DNA from: Patescibacteria group bacterium | GTDB taxonomy: Bacteria > Patescibacteriota > Patescibacteriia > Patescibacteriales > WJLG01 | NCBI GenBank assembly: GCA_028707065.1 | Contig: JAQTUZ010000001.1 | Coordinates: 65,551 to 98,736 of the forward strand | Reading direction: 5' to 3' | Length of the DNA stretch: 33,186 nucleotides | Part shown: positions 1-29,304 of the stretch, one piece after another | How the letters are laid out: each line of letters begins with the position of its first letter | How positions within the stretch are numbered: the first letter of the stretch is position 1 | Made by a program: the position numbers and the translations under genes | The notes under the pieces: model-generated | Databases searched by the model: none | Told to the model about the DNA's origin: nothing | Seen by the model: the letters and a program-made list of their open reading frames with translations, nothing else

Positions 1-552
1 AATGAATACCGAAGAATTACTGATAGCAAAGCCCGAGATATATGGGGCAGAAGAAGAGCAGGAAATTTGGCGCGGTGTGAGCAGGGTGGGAGAATTTATT
101 GGCGAGGGATTATTAGTTAAAATATTTTCCTTAATTTCCGCTGATTTTAAAGAAGACCTTTCTATGACTGATCGAACGATGGCTGACGCGGGCGCCGAGA
201 GTTGAAGGGTGCTTTGGTTTTGGGCCAGGGCCATTATTTCAAATGTTTGATTGGAATTAAGAGGGGAAGAGAGGTAGGTAAATTTTGCGACATCGCTATT
301 TATTTGGCTAATATTAGCTACTCCATTATATTTTCCATTGATATAGATTAAGATTCTATAGCCATTTGCCACCAAGCCGTTGATTTGAATTTGGCTACTA
401 GTAGACTCTTCAATTTGCGTGGTAGAGAGAATTGTGGGCAGAGGAATTTGCGGCAACAAATCGGCTTTGGCCGGTTTTATTGAACCGCAAAACGCGATCA
501 TCAGGAAAACCGCCAAAACAAGACAGAAAATATAAAAAATTTTTTTGATCAT
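1..552 (-). CDS. Secreted protein, C-terminus beyond window edge
   Basis: An open frame on the minus strand runs from ATG at 552 to the left edge with no stop, giving at least 184 residues. The first 31 residues form a clear Sec signal peptide: two lysines, a hydrophobic run (IFYIFCLVLAVFLMIAF), then a KPAKAD cleavage-like site. The mature part is rich in Ser, Asn, Thr and Ile. It contains a stretch that looks like a beta-sandwich (INGLVANGYRILIYINGKY), followed by a low-complexity Ser/Pro/Asn region. This suggests an exported surface protein with an Ig-like module, but I recognise no family. A 67-codon frame on the opposite strand at 2-205 is taken as its shadow. Confidence 0.72.
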   Translation of the reverse strand, partial: MIKKIFYIFCLVLAVFLMIAFCGSIKPAKADLLPQIPLPTILSTTQIEESTSSQIQINGLVANGYRILIYINGKYNGVANISQINSDVAKFTYLSSPLNSNQTFEIMALAQNQSTLQLSAPASAIVRSVIERSSLKSAEIKENILTNNPSPINSPTLLTPRQISCSSSAPYISGFAISNSSVFI

Positions 553-7260: not shown

Positions 7261-7309
7261 GGTTCCGCCGCGGGATCAGTTCGGATTGCGGCGGCGGGGC
7301 AAAAACAAA

Positions 7310-7357
7310 ACGGCCGCAGTCTGCTTCCGCCGGCCGGCGGAGCGAGACCGTGATTGC
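7310..7357. repeat. GC-rich palindromic element, copy 1
   Basis: The core TCTGCTTCCGCCGGCCGGCG and following bases GAGCGA are shared almost exactly with 8588-8635. The centre CCGCCGGCCGGCGG is a perfect palindrome, and flanking AGTCT/AGACC bases extend the hairpin. The rest of 7261-7402 is GC-rich (several CGGCGG-type words) and holds no gene I can support. Confidence 0.7.
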
Positions 7358-7402
7358 ACTAAAATGCCGCGGCCCAAGGCGGGGTCGCGGCGCAAGCAGA
7401 GC

Positions 7403-8472: not shown

Positions 8473-8587
8473 TAGACATGTGAAACATTAATAGTTTTTT
8501 GTAAGTATTTTATTTAAAATTAGCCAATTTATATTTTTAACATTAATACTTTTTTTTACAATCATTACTGCAAAAATTTAAACTAAA

Positions 8588-8635
8588 ACGGCCACGGTCT
8601 GCTTCCGCCGGCCGGCGGAGCGAAACCATGGCCGT
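8588..8635. repeat. GC-rich palindromic element, copy 2
   Basis: Direct-orientation second copy of the 7310-7357 element. Here the outer arms are better kept: ACGGCCA (8588-8594) and TGGCCGT (8629-8635) pair, and the CCGCCGGCCGGCGG core forms the tip. The rest of 8473-8660 is AT-rich and shows no gene. Confidence 0.75.
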
Positions 8636-8660
8636 ATTAAACAATTTAACAGCATAACAT

Positions 8661-12284: not shown

Positions 12285-12359
12285 TGAAAAAGATTTGAAT
12301 TAAAGGGATTATTTCAAATAGAATCACTGAATTCTATTTTTTATATCTCAAATAATTTA

Positions 12360-12397
12360 TCCCGAGGCAGGCTCGGGATGCCGACTTCACGTCGGCA
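12360..12397. repeat. Double-hairpin element (CCCGAG/TGCCGAC type), copy 1
   Basis: Two adjacent 19-nt hairpins with 7-bp stems and 5-nt loops: TCCCGAG/CTCGGGA, then TGCCGAC/GTCGGCA. It is the reverse complement of 24671-24708 with only two differences, both in the loops. It lies in the rplS leader and could affect that mRNA. Confidence 0.8.
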
Positions 12398-12432
12398 TAA
12401 TTCATAATTTATAATTTGTAATTGATAATAAT

Positions 12433-12861: not shown

Positions 12862-12893
12862 AAAATGACTGTGTGATTTACACGGTCATTTTT
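12862..12893 (+). terminator. Intrinsic terminator of rplS
   Basis: An imperfect stem AAAATGAC...GTGT / ACAC...GTCATTTTT with a 5-nt loop and a T run, just after the rplS stop codon. Confidence 0.85.
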
Positions 12894-12903
12894 GAATAAG
12901 ACC

Positions 12904-13557
12904 ATGAGCCGTCCAAGGAGGGATAAAATCAAATGGTCGCCGGATTTGGCGTACGTTGTCGGGCTGATAACCAGCGACGGCTGCCTTTCTAAAGATGGGA
13001 GGCACATAGAGTTTACCTCAAATGATATTGATTTGATTCTTACATTTAAGAGTATCTTGGGGCTTAAGGTAAAAATTGGACATAAAACATCCGGCTATAC
13101 TGGTAAAAAATATCCGCGTTTGCAATTTGGCGACATTGTTTTGTATAATTGGCTTAAATCGATCGGTTTGATGCCGAAAAAATCGAAGATAATTGGTGAT
13201 TTAAAAATTCCTAGAAAATATTTTTTTGATTTTTTAAGGGGATTATTCGATGGTGACGGCTGTTTTTATTCTTACTGGGATAAGCGTTGGAAAAGTAGTT
13301 TTATGTTTTATGTTGATTTTTGTTCTGCCAGTAAAAAGTTTTTGAAATGGTTGCGTAAATCATTATCTGCCCATTTAGAGATAAGAGGAAATTTAAAGAT
13401 AGGTACTAATGTTTGGAATTTAAGATTTGCTAAAGAGGAAGGATTAAAAATTATTAAAAAAATGTATTATTTGTCAGACGTTAAGTGCTTGGCGAGAAAG
13501 AAAAATAAAATTATCAGGGCGTTTAAAGAAGGGGAAGAAAAGTTTGTTTTAAGGTAA
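12904..13557 (+). CDS. Free-standing LAGLIDADG homing endonuclease
   Basis: 217 residues from ATG 12904; the frame can extend to a TTG at 12892, but that lies in the rplS terminator. Two LAGLIDADG helices are visible: LAYVVGLITSDGCL at about residues 15-28 and FLRGLFDGDGCF at about 110-121, each with the acidic catalytic residue (Asp in SDG and GDG). The conserved follow-on segments (IEFTSNDIDLILTFKSILGL and SASKKFLKWLRKSL) fit a two-repeat monomeric enzyme. It would cut a long target and copy itself into it. No intron or intein boundary is seen: it sits between the rplS terminator and tRNA-Leu. Codon use is AT-richer than in its neighbours, suggesting acquisition. Confidence 0.88.
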   Translation: MSRPRRDKIKWSPDLAYVVGLITSDGCLSKDGRHIEFTSNDIDLILTFKSILGLKVKIGHKTSGYTGKKYPRLQFGDIVLYNWLKSIGLMPKKSKIIGDLKIPRKYFFDFLRGLFDGDGCFYSYWDKRWKSSFMFYVDFCSASKKFLKWLRKSLSAHLEIRGNLKIGTNVWNLRFAKEEGLKIIKKMYYLSDVKCLARKKNKIIRAFKEGEEKFVLR

Positions 13558-13572
13558 AATTAGTTAAAAATT

Positions 13573-13654
13573 GGGGATGTGGTGAAACTGGTACACACGT
13601 ACGCTTGAGGTGCGTATGCCGCAAGGCTTGGAGGTTCAAGTCCTCTCATCCCCA
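13573..13654 (+). tRNA. tRNA-Leu(GAG)
   Basis: 82 nt. Acceptor GGGGATG pairs with CATCCCC; anticodon arm TACGC-TTGAGGT-GCGTA gives anticodon GAG. A class II long variable arm (GCC GCAA GGC) and T arm GGAGG-TTCAAGT-CCTCT are present. Discriminator A; the full CCA is not encoded. It lies 15 bases after the LAGLIDADG gene and directly before a palindromic cluster. Confidence 0.95.
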
Positions 13655-13657
13655 CCT

Positions 13658-14288: not shown

Positions 14289-14336
14289 CGATTTTTAGCT
14301 TCATAAATCGCCAATCGAATTGGGGTAATTAGCTCA

Positions 14337-14419
14337 TCCGCCAGTTGGCGGAGGTTATCCGCGACGTCGCCGTAGGCGCGCGCGGACCCGCTCACAGCCC
14401 AAAGGGCTGATGTAGCGGG
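14337..14419. repeat. Palindromes inserted in a tRNA D-loop
   Basis: Between the D-stem strands of the outer tRNA lie a 16-nt palindrome TCCGCCAGTTGGCGGA (14337-14352), five bases GGTTA, then a double hairpin: TCCGCG...CGCGGA (14358-14386) and CCCGCT...AGCGGG (14387-14419). The double hairpin is a diverged copy of the elements at 24480-24539 and 24605-24665 in the tRNA-Cys tail array. Confidence 0.8.
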
Positions 14420-14476
14420 GAGCGCCCGGTTTATTCACCCCGCCCCATTTGCCTAATTATCATAATCTAAAAAAGA

Positions 14477-14550
14477 GGATCTATAGCTCAGTTGGTTAGA
14501 GCGCCTCGTTTACACCGAGGAGGTCGTAGGTTCGAATCCTACTGGGTCCA
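14477..14550 (+). tRNA. tRNA-Val(TAC)
   Basis: 74 nt. Acceptor GGATCTA/TGGGTCC (with G-T pairs), D arm GCTC...GAGC, anticodon arm CCTCG-TTTACAC-CGAGG giving anticodon TAC, T arm GTAGG-TTCGAAT-CCTAC, discriminator A; CCA not encoded. It lies wholly inside the anticodon-arm interruption of another tRNA. Confidence 0.93.
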
Positions 14551-14640
14551 CGAAAAAAAACAAATGGGGCGGGGCAAGTCCGGAAGGTCGTAGGTTCAAG
14601 TCCTACATTACCCACCGAAATAATTTTTTGAAATTTTTTA

Positions 14641-23508: not shown

Positions 23509-24102
23509 ATGAATAATTTTAAACAATATGTAAAATTAGCTCAAAATAAGCTGATCGAAAGATTGCTTGTTTTGATTTCTTTGCTTACTTTAGCTAATTT
23601 AATATTTTTTCCAATCCCAACCCTGGCTGAGACGGAAAATTCGAGCATTAATTCAGGTATTATTACCGCGAATTTTCAATTAGTGCCGGAAAATAAGGGC
23701 TATAATTTGATTCAAATTCTTAATCCTGAGGTTATGTTCGATGGCAGCGCTCACCCCCAAAACGGCCATTTGCCCCAAAATAAAGGGCTGGAAGCCAAGT
23801 ATTCAGTTACCGCGGTGCTTACCGCCTATAATTCCGAAATTGGCCAGACCGATAATACCCCCTGTATCACGGCTAGCGGCTTTGATCTCTGCAAGCACGG
23901 CCAGGAAGACATTGTCGCAATTAATGGCGTTAAAATGGGAACCAAGGTCAGATTTCCTGATCTTTTCGGCGACCGAGTGTTTGTGGTCAGGGACAGGATG
24001 AACTCTCGGTATGATTCCAGCCGCGTTGATGTTTGGATGTTGAGCCGCGCTGATGCTAAAAATTTTGGGGTTAGAGTCGCGAAAATGGAATTTCTCGAAT
24101 AA
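23509..24102 (+). CDS. Secreted 3D-domain (MltA/RlpA-like barrel) protein
   Basis: 197 residues. A membrane/signal segment spans about 18-42 (RLLVLISLLTLANLIFFPIPTLA), followed by a Ser/Asn-rich linker. The 3D domain begins near residue 100: VTAVLTAYNSEIGQTDNTPC, CITASGFDLC, VAINGVKMGTKVRFPDLFGDRVFVV, and RDRMNSRYDSSRVDVWM, which carries the acidic active-site cluster that names the domain. Such domains occur in wall-lytic Stationary-phase/YabE-like proteins, often with LysM or G5 modules; here the domain stands alone. Probable cell-wall remodelling exoenzyme. A terminator follows. Confidence 0.86.
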   Translation: MNNFKQYVKLAQNKLIERLLVLISLLTLANLIFFPIPTLAETENSSINSGIITANFQLVPENKGYNLIQILNPEVMFDGSAHPQNGHLPQNKGLEAKYSVTAVLTAYNSEIGQTDNTPCITASGFDLCKHGQEDIVAINGVKMGTKVRFPDLFGDRVFVVRDRMNSRYDSSRVDVWMLSRADAKNFGVRVAKMEFLE

Positions 24103-24265: not shown

Positions 24266-24336
24266 GGTCTGGTCGCCAAGTGGTAAGGCATGGGTCTGCA
24301 AAACCCTTATCGTGAGTTCGATTCTCACCCAGACCT
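24266..24336 (+). tRNA. tRNA-Cys(GCA)
   Basis: 71 nt. Acceptor GGTCTGG/CCAGACC, anticodon arm TGGGT-CTGCAAA-ACCCT (anticodon GCA), T arm GTGAG-TTCGATT-CTCAC, and discriminator U73, which is the cysteine identity base. CCA is not encoded. Its 3' third is duplicated several times downstream. Confidence 0.95.
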
Positions 24337-24720
24337 CGTTTCTTTTGGCAGGTGGTGGTGCCTCTGCCATTTTTTTGTGAGTTCCCGCCCAGAGGGCGGT
24401 CCGCCTTTGGCGGAGATTCTCACCCAGACCTCGTTTCTTTTGGCAGGTGGTGGCGCCTCTGCCATTTTTTTGTGAGTTCTCCGCGACGTCGCCGTAGGCG
24501 CGCGCGGATCCGCTCACGGCCAGAGGCCGATGTAGCGGAGATTCTCACCCAGACCTCGTTTCTTTTGGCAGGTGGTGGCGCCTCTGCCATTTTTTTGTGA
24601 GTTCTCCGCGACGTCGCCTGATGGCGCGCGCGGATCCGCTCACGGCCAGAGGCCGATGTAGCGGAGATTCTGCCGACCTGAAGTCGGCATCCCGAGCTTG
24701 CCTCGGGATCACTCAGACCT
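24337..24720 (+). repeat. tRNA-Cys tail array with palindromes in the T-loop
   Basis: After tRNA-Cys comes a terminator-like hairpin (GGCAG...CTGCC plus seven T), then a repeated unit: 5' T-stem GTGAGTTC, a palindromic insert, then GATTCTCACCCAGACCTC and the same terminator. Inserts lie exactly between TTC and GATT of the T-loop: 24385-24414 (15+15-nt double hairpin), 24480-24539 (29+31) and 24605-24665 (30+31). In the last tail copy a fourth double hairpin (24671-24708) splits the 3' T-stem between GATTC and TCAC. No open frame across this region is credible. Each hairpin-plus-T-run copy could terminate the tRNA transcript. Confidence 0.88.
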
Positions 24721-24831
24721 CAATCCAAACCATTAGCGCGGACTCCGAAATAAAAGGACATGAAGCTCTCGCCATTAACCCTTGAGAAGGTAATAAGTAT
24801 CCTGACAAACAGGTCATCAATTAGGTGAAGT

Positions 24832-26626: not shown

Positions 26627-27073
26627 TTAACCGCTGCCGCCAACCGTGTGAATTCCTTGTCCTGCTCCGGTATTTAAAGCATTGAAGACAAAGTAGGTGA
26701 TGGAATAGGCGGCGATGACGATCACTAAGCCGATGATGGCGCGGGTGATGGTTTGCTTGGCTTTGTCGATCTTTTCTTCATTGCCTTCGGCGGTCATCCA
26801 TTGGAATCCGGCGTAGATCAATAACGCAATGAAGATTACGCCGAGCAGGCCGAGAACCGCCGTGATTATCGCGCCAGTTATGCCGGCGACACTGGTAACG
26901 GAGATTCCCGAGGCCGGTAAAAATGCTTTCATTTGCGGATTGGTAATGGAAAGGGGATTGCTGGCCGGCGCCGGAGTCGCGGCCGGCGGAGTCTGGGCCG
27001 CGGCCGGAAAAACAAGAAATAAAATCCCCCAGGCCAAAAGCGAAAAAAGCAAGCAAGATAATTTTTTTCTCAT
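26627..27073 (-). CDS. VirB2/TrbC-like pilin paralogue 6 of the tandem array
   Basis: 148 residues. Signal peptide KLSCLLFSLLAWGILFLVFP with AAAQ cleavage site; then a Pro/Ala-rich linker (TPPAATPAPASNPLS) longer than in its sisters. TM1 covers about 64-90 (ITGAIITAVLGLLGVIFIAL), followed by the family core YAGFQWMTAEGNEEKIDKAK and TM2 (AIIGLVIVIAAYSITYFVF). The C-terminus is Gly-rich (GAGQGIHTVGGSG). It is last in the array, before the terminator. Pilin/VirB2-like status is from the two-helix plan and the WMTAEGxEEKIEKAK loop; assembly into a fibre is inferred. Confidence 0.82.
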   Translation of the reverse strand: MRKKLSCLLFSLLAWGILFLVFPAAAQTPPAATPAPASNPLSITNPQMKAFLPASGISVTSVAGITGAIITAVLGLLGVIFIALLIYAGFQWMTAEGNEEKIDKAKQTITRAIIGLVIVIAAYSITYFVFNALNTGAGQGIHTVGGSG

Positions 27074-27102
27074 ATTATTTGGTTTAATTAATAACCAGTT
27101 TT

Positions 27103-27486
27103 CTAACCCGAGACAGCGAAAGATACGCTTCTGACTAAAGCGTAAATGCCATAAACGCCAACGGTGATTACCAGCCCGATTATCGCGTTCCGCAGAATTT
27201 TTTGAGCTTTCTCCACTTTAGCTTCGTCGCCTTCGGCCGTCATCCAGATAATGCCGGCGTAAACGATCAGGGCGATAAAAATTATGCCCAATAGGCTTAA
27301 AACCGTGCTGACGACCGCGCCGGCAATCACCGAGATGGTTGTTTGGTTGGTTGATTTATTGTAACCGCCGGCAACGCCCACGTTTTGCAAAGCGTTAAGC
27401 GGGGAATCGGCAAAAACAAAATAGGGGAGAATTAAAAATCCGAGCAGGCTTGCTAAAATGAAAATTCTTTTGATTATTTTTTTCAT
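27103..27486 (-). CDS. VirB2/TrbC-like pilin paralogue 5
   Basis: 127 residues. Signal peptide MKKIIKRIFILASLLGFLIL to about FVFADS; short mature N-terminus with Gly/Asn (NVGVAGGYNKSTNQTT); TM1 VSTVLSLLGIIFIALIVYAG; loop IWMTAEGDEAKVEKAQKIL; TM2 AIIGLVITVGVYGIYALV. It ends with VSFAVSG. It lies 3 bases downstream of paralogue 4, so the pair is translationally close. It diverges from the others in TM2, with Gly-Val-Tyr-Gly in place of the Ala-Ala-Tyr-Ala pattern. Confidence 0.82.
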   Translation of the reverse strand: MKKIIKRIFILASLLGFLILPYFVFADSPLNALQNVGVAGGYNKSTNQTTISVIAGAVVSTVLSLLGIIFIALIVYAGIIWMTAEGDEAKVEKAQKILRNAIIGLVITVGVYGIYALVRSVSFAVSG

Positions 27487-27489
27487 AAA

Positions 27490-27888
27490 TTATTGTTTAT
27501 TGCCAAAGACGCTTATATTTAAAGCGCTGATCACAAAGAAGCTGATGGCGTAAGCGGCAAGCACCACGACCAAGCCGATGATTGCCGAACGGAGGATGCT
27601 TTGCGCTTTTTCTATTTTGGTTTCTTCGCCTTCGGCGGTCATCCAGGTAATTCCGCCATAGATGATGAGCGAGATGAAGATTACGCCCAGCAAACTAAGC
27701 AGCGCTTGAATGACTGTTCCGATTATCTGGTAGACGGTGGTTTTGGTATCATAACCGGTCCCCGCGGCCGCGCCCAGGGAGCTGCTTGAAAAAGCATCGC
27801 CCAAGCCGGCGGCCTGGACCGGAGAGAGTAAAATAAAAGACAGACAAAAGATTAGCGGAATTATTTTTAACCAGAAAGTCTTTTTCAT
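27490..27888 (-). CDS. VirB2/TrbC-like pilin paralogue 4
   Basis: 132 residues. Signal peptide KTFWLKIIPLIFCLSFILLS with VQAAG; Ser/Ala/Gly-rich mature start (LGDAFSSSSLGAAAGTGYD); TM1 IQALLSLLGVIFISLIIYGG; loop TWMTAEGEETKIEKAQSIL; TM2 AIIGLVVVLAAYAISFFVIS. This is close to the array consensus. Glycine and serine near the mature N-terminus are typical of surface filament subunits. Confidence 0.83.
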   Translation of the reverse strand: MKKTFWLKIIPLIFCLSFILLSPVQAAGLGDAFSSSSLGAAAGTGYDTKTTVYQIIGTVIQALLSLLGVIFISLIIYGGITWMTAEGEETKIEKAQSILRSAIIGLVVVLAAYAISFFVISALNISVFGNKQ

Positions 27889-27921
27889 AAATTTATTCGC
27901 CCGTCTCGTGCTCGTGTTTTT

Positions 27922-28275
27922 TTAACCTTTGGTTAAAGCGCTGATGACGAAGAAACTGATGGCATAAGCGGCTAAAACAATAATCAATCCGATTACGCTT
28001 TCAATGATGATGTTTTTGGCTTTTTCGATCCGTTCTTCCTTGCCTTCGGCCGTCATCCACATTATGCCGCCGTAGATAGTTAAGCCTAAAAAGACCACGC
28101 CGATCACGGCCAAGATCACGCCGATCACCGTGCCGGCCATGGCGGTGACCCCGGCGGTTCCGGAATTTTCCGGAATGCCGGCATTTTTGGCGGTATCGCT
28201 CACGCCGCTATTTTTCAAAAAATCGTAAGCGATGAGTTTGTTATTAAGAGAAATAAGGGTAGAAAAGATAAACAT
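27922..28275 (-). CDS. VirB2/TrbC-like pilin paralogue 3, no ordinary signal peptide
   Basis: 117 residues. It differs from its sisters at the N-terminus: MFIFSTLISLNNKLIAYDFL lacks a basic n-region and a clear signal-peptidase site. TM1 TVIGVILAVIGVVFLGLTIY, loop IMWMTAEGKEERIEKAKNII and TM2 SVIGLIIVLAAYAISFFVIS are standard. Either it is inserted with its first helix as signal anchor or the true start lies elsewhere; bases upstream offer no better start in frame. TM2 is almost identical to that of paralogue 4, suggesting a recent duplication or conversion. Confidence 0.78.
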   Translation of the reverse strand: MFIFSTLISLNNKLIAYDFLKNSGVSDTAKNAGIPENSGTAGVTAMAGTVIGVILAVIGVVFLGLTIYGGIMWMTAEGKEERIEKAKNIIIESVIGLIIVLAAYAISFFVISALTKG

Positions 28276-28333
28276 CGCTAATTTTAATGATTATGTTTAA
28301 AATTTTTGGCGGCTAAAATCCGGTGGGGAGATT

Positions 28334-28726
28334 TTATTTGCCGCCGGTCAATTGAGTGCCGATAAAGGTGGTGATGGCATAGGCCGAGAGCACGATGACG
28401 AGGCCGATTACCGCGGCGATCAAGATTTCTTTGGCTTTTTCCACTTCTTGTTCGTTGCCTTGGGCCAGCATCCAGCGCAAACCGCCGTAGATAACCAATA
28501 AAAAGAAAATGACGCCCAATAAGGAAAGAACGGCGCCGACGACCGTGCCGGTTATTTGCTGCGGGGTTCTGTCGATCAGCGTCCCCTTGGATTCGGTCAG
28601 GCCGTAATTTCCGGGCGGCGTCGCTGGCGCCTCGGTCTGGGCGAAAACCGGCAAGGAAAAGAAAGGCAAGACGAAAAATACGAAAATTGCCGATAAGATA
28701 CCGATTTTTTTGGCGATCACAAACAT
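28334..28726 (-). CDS. VirB2/TrbC-like pilin paralogue 2
   Basis: 130 residues. Signal peptide KKIGILSAIFVFFVLPFFSL to VFAQ; Pro/Thr-rich linker EAPATPPGNYGLTESKG; TM1 GTVVGAVLSLLGVIFFLLVI; loop LRWMLAQGNEQEVEKAKEIL, in which the usual TAEG is LAQG; TM2 AVIGLVIVLSAYAITTFIGT. It ends LTGGK. The gap of nearly 200 bases upstream, before paralogue 1, holds palindromes. Confidence 0.82.
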   Translation of the reverse strand: MFVIAKKIGILSAIFVFFVLPFFSLPVFAQTEAPATPPGNYGLTESKGTLIDRTPQQITGTVVGAVLSLLGVIFFLLVIYGGLRWMLAQGNEQEVEKAKEILIAAVIGLVIVLSAYAITTFIGTQLTGGK

Positions 28727-28774
28727 ATTTTTGAAAGCTAATGGTTTTTTACTGCTCTGGACACAAAATCAGAA

Positions 28775-28917
28775 TCACCCCTTTAGAACCACCCCCAGAC
28801 CCCTTCTTGAAAAGGAGGGGAGATTTTTAAAAGGAGGGGAAATTCTGTCCAAGGCAGTGAGTCTTACTTTAGGAATAAGACCCACTAATTTTCCTAAAAC
28901 TAGTTTTGGAAAAATTA
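28775..28917. repeat. Palindromic spacer between pilin paralogues 1 and 2
   Basis: It contains CCCCTTCTTGAAAAGGAGGGG-like inverted words (28799-28820) akin to the internal arms of the MITE-like element, then GTCTTA/TAAGAC (28861-28890) and TTTTCC...GGAAAA (28890-28915) hairpins. No gene. It may terminate or stabilise the paralogue 1 transcript, letting that pilin be made in larger amounts. Confidence 0.55.
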
Positions 28918-29304
28918 CTAAGTCGTTGGTATGCCTGTCGCCGTAAGCAGACTATTAAGGACAAAGGTGGCGATTCCCCAGGAAGCTAAGATAATGATCA
29001 AACCGATGATGCCGGCCATCAAGACTTTCTTGGCATCTTCAATTTGCTCTTCATTGCCGGCCGCCGTCATCCACTTAAAACCGCCGATCAGAATGATAAC
29101 TACCGCCAAAACACCCAAGAAGCCCAAGGCGATCTGAATTATCAATCCCGCCATTTTTCGCGGGTCATTGGTGCCCAGACCGGTCACGCTGTTGTTGACG
29201 TAGTTAGTTCCCAAATCCAGAGCCAAAGCTGGCATGGCCAGAACCGGTACCGCGATGGTCAGAACCATGGCGACGATCATCAGACTTTTTAACATTTTGT
29301 TCAT
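28918..29304 (-). CDS. VirB2/TrbC-like pilin paralogue 1 (first and best-expressed looking)
   Basis: 128 residues. Signal peptide KMLKSLMIVAMVLTIAVPVL to ALALD; mature start DLGTNYVNNSVTGLGTNDPR; TM1 IIQIALGFLGVLAVVIILIG; loop FKWMTAAGNEEQIEDAKKVL; TM2 GIIGLIIILASWGIATFVLN. It is the most diverged member (Trp in TM2, AAG in the loop). A very strong Shine-Dalgarno GGAGG (29315-29311) precedes its ATG, and an imperfect hairpin AAAGRCAC/GTGYCTTT (29321-29342) lies in the leader. This suggests it is the major subunit; that is inference. Confidence 0.83.
   Translation of the reverse strand: MNKMLKSLMIVAMVLTIAVPVLAMPALALDLGTNYVNNSVTGLGTNDPRKMAGLIIQIALGFLGVLAVVIILIGGFKWMTAAGNEEQIEDAKKVLMAGIIGLIIILASWGIATFVLNSLLTATGIPTT

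Follow-up and report, generated by a model that had tools for sequence, protein, structure and literature searches.

The paired hairpins at positions 14358-14419 of the window are one copy of an element, here called element A, whose sites in its own genome all lie inside remnants of tRNA genes; the element is probably the non-coding plug of a tRNA-targeted homing unit that regenerates the tRNA it enters. The hairpin-plugged remnants and the nucleases encoded near them suggest a mobile element that enters tRNA genes by homing yet leaves the cell viable. The window, that is the whole stretch of 33,186 nucleotides analyzed, corresponds to G000:C1:65551-98736 of a 1.51-Mb draft genome in 42 contigs (95.4% complete).

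The positions originally predicted for element A in the window, 14358-14419, 24480-24539 and 24605-24665, were all confirmed. The element is a pair of GC-rich hairpins, and each window copy folds into both, with a stability of about -26 to -27 kcal/mol as DNA (z -4.8 to -5.5) that was equalled by 0 of 200 shuffles. The prediction that stems stay paired while loops vary was borne out over 11 distinct copies (10 from the own genome and 1 from a relative), in which 272 of 272 stem cells held standard pairs and the loops differed; 7 of the 25 pairs showed more than one standard pair type, with both sides changed. On the 5' strand of hairpin 1 an A and a T are bulged out, at a distance of two base pairs. 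Hairpin 2 is the hairpin 1 type in reverse complement and carries the matching A/T bulges on its 3' strand. Due to this inverted order element A looks alike on both strands, and a covariance model also matched the opposite strand at 9 of the 10 own-genome sites, with lower scores. Strand symmetry of this kind fits recognition as DNA better than a function as RNA.

The first window copy (plus strand, as are all parts of this locus and of the tRNA-Cys locus below) is made up of hairpin 1 (14358-14386) and the inverted hairpin 2 (14387-14419) and lies between GGTTA and GAGC in the D loop of an outer tRNA remnant, alongside a simple hairpin, TCCGCCAGTTGGCGGA (14337-14352). The 5' half of this remnant (14323-14437) comprises the acceptor GGGTAAT, the D arm with both inserts and the anticodon-stem CCGG; the break is in the anticodon loop, and ARAGORN made no call. 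The 3' half, with the T arm and the acceptor ATTACCC, is found at 14575-14616. An intact tRNA-Val (TAC; 14477-14551) sits in the anticodon loop of the outer remnant, flanked by a 14-nt inverted repeat read by eye, with the left arm CCCCGCCCCATTTG at 14438-14451 and the right arm CAAATGGGGCGGGG at 14561-14574. The outer tRNA spans about 14323-14616 in total and scored best as tRNA-Val TAC (31) and tRNA-Ile GAT (30.5). A synteny comparison through the EPSP synthase gene gave matches in 3 of 5 genomes, at 26% identity or less, with no clear orthologue. The tRNA-Ile-TAT locus (L004) has a layout like that of the inner tRNA-Val, with a different inverted repeat, and the outer tRNAs of both loci are broken in the anticodon loop.

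The remaining two window copies belong to a tail array behind an intact tRNA-Cys (GCA; 24266-24337), whose units consist of the T arm and the 3' acceptor strand only. Unit 1 (24377-24430) carries the T-loop pair CCGCCC..GGGCGG + TCCGCC..GGCGGA at 24385-24414, and units 2 (24472-24555) and 3 (24597-24721) carry element A at 24480-24539 and 24605-24665, respectively, inserted between T-loop positions 54 and 55. The T arm of unit 3 holds an extra pair, TGCCGAC..GTCGGCA + TCCCGAG..CTCGGGA, at 24671-24708. An inverted second copy of this extra pair, matching 24667-24709, was observed in an intergenic stretch at 12359-12401, with no tRNA remnant seen around it by eye. The orthologous tRNA-Cys locus was traced in five relatives by the gene that precedes it (window 23509-24102). 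In G001 (85% identity), G002 and G004 a tRNA-Cys stands behind the tracer gene and has no tail array, in G006 it has no tail but is preceded by a 5' remnant and a hairpin, and in G003 no tRNA-Cys was found behind the tracer gene. Occupied and empty alleles are both present at this locus. The arrays thus differ between relatives, by either gain or loss, gain being the simpler reading.

The distribution of element A was determined with a covariance model built from six copies. In the own genome it matched 10 sites (19 matches if both strands are counted, at E up to 1), at distances of 19, 26, 51, 51, 52, 58, 86, 144, 263 and 269 bp from the nearest intact tRNA; the share of the genome lying as close to one of the 49 distinct tRNAs counted is 2%, an upper-bound estimate. 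All 10 sites are inside tRNA remnants, seven in D loops (Ile-TAT, Thr-CGT, Arg-GCG, the outer remnant around Val-TAC, Ser-CGA, Arg-TCG and Lys-TTT) and three in T loops (Cys twice and Pro-CGG). The Arg-GCG junction lies one base inside the D stem, and the right side of the Lys-TTT copy has decayed. Across 60 genomes, the own one and 59 relatives, searched at E up to 0.01, further sites were found in G002 (three), G042 (one) and G048 (one), and 56 of the 59 relatives gave no match, including G001 of the same genus. The G002 sites are in the anticodon loop. All five relative sites are at tRNAs, four of them less than 400 bp from an intact tRNA, while the fifth, where its contig ends, adjoins a fragment of tRNA-Ser. 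The outcome named as refuting the original prediction, with most copies elsewhere outside tRNA genes and no site preference, did not occur, since the tRNA-associated sites were 10 of 10 in the own genome and 5 of 5 in relatives. Simple TCCGCC/GGCGGA hairpins, in contrast, occur at 89 sites genome-wide and lie mostly away from tRNAs among the matches listed, and an origin of element A as chance palindromes was rejected on this difference.

None of the 49 distinct full tRNAs that ARAGORN found in the own genome carries an insert, although this program would miss a tRNA with a large one. Every insert-bearing copy read by eye was a tRNA half or tail beside an intact tRNA, and roughly 20 of the 49 tRNAs have partial copies of themselves in their flanks, either 5' halves upstream or T-arm/acceptor pieces downstream. 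Junctions were collected, without reference to loops, wherever an insert had tRNA sequence to its left (at least 8 matching bases) and to its right (at least 6) and half of the insert was paired. This yielded 17 own-genome junctions, at tRNA positions 12-14, 21-22, 35 and 54-57; the outer tRNA, Arg-GCG, the Ile-TAT D loop, Glu-CTC and the third Cys unit were read by eye in addition to these 17. All 17 fell within a loop (D, anticodon or T) or missed one by about a base (p 3e-8 against a uniform distribution), for a loop window (12-22, 31-38 and 53-60) that was chosen after the data had been seen and with two positions, Arg-TCG 22 and Pro 56, set by eye. With one junction per tRNA, 14 of 14 were at loops (p 6e-7 with the same post hoc window), and a stricter window held 13 of the 17 (p 3e-4). 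Several junction rows from relatives were left out as chance or wrong pairing (L082, the first of L085, the second of L088, L091, L102 and the second of L106).

Besides element A, the remnants contain single hairpins and the pairs CCGCCC+TCCGCC, TCCGCC+CCACCC, TCAGCC+CCACCC, CCACCC+TCCGCC, TCCGCC+CCCGCC and GCCACGTC+GCCCTGTC, and those of Glu-TTC, Lys-TTT and Thr-GGT are plugged at two places. The original prediction that the element targets tRNA loops thus held as regards the loop preference, seen in 17 of 17 junctions and in the location of 15 of 15 sites at tRNAs, but a working cloverleaf folded around the insert was not supported, the hosts being broken halves and tails next to intact tRNAs; a spliced outer tRNA is still conceivable. 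A nuclease that recognizes conserved tRNA-gene sequence would account for the sites just as well as targeting by an RNA or DNA fold.

The own genome has nine matches to the GIY-YIG domain PF01541: a 502-aa frame, presumably UvrC to judge from its size, a 209-aa frame and seven small ones. Five of the seven small genes lie less than 300 bp upstream of a same-strand tRNA (Thr-GGT, Glu-CTC, Glu-TTC, Ser-CGA and Ser-GGA), which has a chance probability of about 6e-11; the other two (C1:36547 and C5:165) are away from tRNAs. At Ser-CGA (L062) a 5' remnant with element A in its D loop is followed by the GIY-YIG gene and then by the intact tRNA-Ser, and the same order recurs at tRNA-Ser-TGA of G002, a relative of the same family (L066 and L080), there with element A in the anticodon loop; the G002 contig matches Candidatus Falkowbacteria Bin_529 (WJLG01000071.1). 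This Ser-CGA copy is the one of the ten own copies of element A that adjoins a GIY-YIG gene, the other nine having no nuclease. In some units a hairpin stands just before the GIY-YIG start codon. The three LAGLIDADG_3 proteins of the genome, members of a homing-endonuclease fold family, are also all encoded at tRNAs, one upstream of Leu-GAG, a second upstream of Gln-CTG and the third between Arg-TCT and His-GTG. The first of these genes is in the window (12892-13557, plus strand) and ends 15 nt before tRNA-Leu (GAG; 13573-13656), with no hairpin seen between the two. The Gln-CTG unit consists of a 5' remnant of about 21 nt, the nuclease gene and the intact tRNA, and has no hairpin.

Other candidates for the mover were considered and rejected. 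The Y1/RAYT transposase domain PF01797 had 0 matches in the own genome (95.4% complete). Integrase att arrays were dismissed on the grounds that the two matches to the integrase family PF00589 both lie near 24 kb of contig C3, away from tRNAs, the C3 tRNA being at 106.8 kb. A group I intron was discarded since Rfam found no intron family in the window, where four tRNAs were the sole matches at gathering score, or in six other own loci searched at E up to 0.1.

GIY-YIG genes beside tRNAs are also present in other phyla. A genome_contigs scan with two tRNA-Ser-linked GIY-YIG proteins as query recovered 21 GIY-YIG loci, most of them from Bacteroidota, and 16 of the 21 had a same-strand tRNA within 500 bp, a proportion obtained with a query built from tRNA-linked proteins. 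The loci beyond that distance were L087, L091, L096, L098 and L100; L096 is at a contig edge, and pieces of tRNA are found near L091. The tRNA in Flavobacterium, Sphingobacteriaceae, Fluviicola and others is in most cases Met-CAT, with the GIY-YIG gene after it. In the Bacteroidota tRNA copies beside the nuclease gene an insert of 14-17 nt with a TCCGCC/GGCGGA hairpin replaces positions 39-48, which lie past the anticodon loop and before the T stem (L084, L085, L088, L089, L092, L093 and L095; L083 and L090 are similar). In a less selected sample, consisting of the best-scoring GIY-YIG locus of every relative from which one had been retrieved, 8 of 29 were within 500 bp of a same-strand tRNA. 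Six of the eight were read, and plugged remnants were present at five of them (L106, L113, L118, L123 and L124), and none was marked at the sixth, L108. Among viral contigs, 47 pattern matches contained no close relative of the GIY-YIG proteins, and the tRNA-hairpin junction pattern occurred in 8 contigs, 0 of which had a tRNA. Taken broadly, the loci raise the tentative possibility that a class of mobile unit in at least Patescibacteria and Bacteroidota homes into tRNA loops and regenerates the tRNA, that the hairpin plug serves both as an immunity mark and as a non-autonomous element mobilized in trans, and that two unrelated nuclease families, GIY-YIG and LAGLIDADG, share this niche.

In the mechanism that we propose, a small GIY-YIG endonuclease, encoded in some of the units, would cut the tRNA gene in a loop or close to one. 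Repair from a copy that bears the element would insert the hairpins, with or without the nuclease gene, and would bring along a fresh copy of the tRNA part destroyed by the break, thereby restoring an intact tRNA; the succession of remnant, spacer or reading frame, and intact tRNA was directly seen. The old tRNA part would stay behind as a remnant with its loop plugged by the hairpins, and the original flank-plus-loop site would be uninterrupted in neither copy, which would protect the carrier. Since the intact tRNA should still bear the cut site, self-protection must be assumed. The copies of element A that have no nuclease gene, which are the majority, would be moved in trans by nucleases encoded elsewhere in the genome, as we infer from the tRNA-Ser units, in which the same hairpins adjoin a GIY-YIG gene. 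Mobility and cleavage are both inferred here from sequence.

If true, this mechanism would explain many of the small GIY-YIG genes and of the tRNA fragments found in these genomes. The hairpin-plugged tRNA remnant would be a ready marker for tracing homing events in uncultured bacteria, and the sparing of its own carrier by a homing nuclease would become directly testable. The tRNA genes are a classic safe harbour for mobile DNA, normally entered by means of integrases; loops occupied by hairpins and nuclease genes, next to which the tRNA has been rebuilt beside its dead copy, would be a different solution. Integrative elements at tRNA genes likewise regenerate the tRNA upon insertion and leave a tRNA piece, but here no integrase is found beside the tRNAs, the loops are the sites, and the unit is a nuclease gene or hairpins alone. 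Element A also shares features with several hairpin elements. The double-hairpin elements of fungal mitochondria have two adjacent GC-rich hairpins whose loops vary and whose stems are kept, a likeness to element A drawn from their general description; they belong to organelle genomes, and we know of no fixation of them on the loops of tRNA remnants. REP/BIME sequences, associated with RAYT transposases, form inverted pairs of bulged hairpins as element A does, although this genome has no Y1 transposase and element A is located in tRNA remnants. Rickettsia palindromic elements insert within working genes, RNA genes included, whereas the hosts here are remnants. Among GIY-YIG enzymes, the single-strand nuclease family Ssn has genomic repeats as targets.

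A free-standing homing endonuclease at tRNA genes is already known from phages. PMC13096335 describes SegB of phages T4/T6 as a GIY-YIG homing endonuclease that cuts inside tRNA genes, co-localizes with tRNAs, promotes tandem amplification of a tRNA segment and prefers the motif RAWTSGAAC, which we read as the reverse complement of a T loop. SegB is a working precedent for the cutting and repair steps, and in T4 a defunct element is homed in trans by a free-standing nuclease (PMC2988022). The present units resemble SegB in having a GIY-YIG nuclease beside tRNA genes, a likeness in domain and location. They share with a SegB-like unit the co-localization with tRNAs and the occurrence of occupied and empty alleles, and a nuclease gene accompanies 1 of the 10 copies of element A. 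They differ from SegB in belonging to bacterial chromosomes, in encoding proteins of about 80-90 aa, and in having hairpin-plugged tRNA remnants at loops, many of them without a nuclease. In the open-access literature we found no description of hairpin-plugged tRNA remnants, of this bulged inverted hairpin pair, or of a chromosomal version in Patescibacteria and Bacteroidota.

Element A could instead be an independent MITE- or REP-like hairpin element, moved by another enzyme, preferring hairpin-forming DNA such as tRNA loops and surviving only in dispensable remnants, its sharing of loops with homing nucleases being coincidental. The several unrelated hairpin pairs at identical loop positions, the hairpins at two places of one remnant (Glu-TTC, Lys-TTT and Thr-GGT) and the general resemblance of the inverted bulged pair to REP/BIME pairs would agree with such an element. 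We nevertheless consider it unlikely, given that PF01797 had no match in the genome and that tRNA remnants are the only holders of element A; moreover, the remnants themselves would be left to explain, and they coincide with nuclease genes.

The maintenance of the stems through compensatory changes might also reflect plugged remnants that function as RNAs, such as decoys against toxins that cut tRNAs, or hairpins that regulate the nuclease gene by hiding its start. Hairpins do stand directly before the GIY-YIG start codon in some units, and T4 homing endonuclease genes are under hairpin regulation (PMC2988022). Most copies of element A, however, have no nuclease reading frame after them, the extents of the remnants are very different (5' halves in some, T arms in others), and the mirroring of the bulges is a symmetry that belongs to DNA strands and not to an RNA, making a role as RNA or regulator quite improbable. 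The T-arm/acceptor repeats after tRNA-Cys and tRNA-Met resemble tandem att sites, and palindromes are common in this genome, so the remnants could in principle be old tyrosine-recombinase att sites at tRNA 3' ends that were later peppered with common palindromes. This is extremely improbable with both integrase-family genes on contig C3 away from tRNAs, many remnants being 5' halves, the hairpins sitting at loops and element A occurring nowhere else. A homing unit that leaves a plugged remnant beside a regenerated tRNA is the reading that we retain.

A second type of element was observed downstream of 9 of the 49 own tRNAs, namely Arg-CCG (L030), Lys-CTT (L006), Asp (L015), Ala-GGC (L028), Tyr (L033), Gly-TCC (L045), Gly-GCC (L046), Ser-GGA (L048) and Glu-TTC (L049). 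After the terminator there is a reverse complement of the T arm of the tRNA (..GATTCGAAC), followed by a GC-rich structured stretch of about 100-170 nt, which in several cases shares AGGCAGGAGCGAG..GCTGCCTCTGGACAAG, and often by a T-arm/acceptor copy. The flanking motif of this element matches the reported SegB motif, and similar structured stretches are present in L080 and L082. At six loci of this type Rfam gave only tRNA/tmRNA families at gathering score. Elsewhere in the window, long imperfect palindromes around TCCGCCGGCCGGCGGA occur at 7302-7363 and 8580-8641; they are 82% alike and belong to the common palindromes of the genome. At 26627-29304 the minus strand encodes a local tandem gene family, in which related small ORFs of about 117-148 aa follow one another and DNA repeats recur at intervals of about 400-600 bp.
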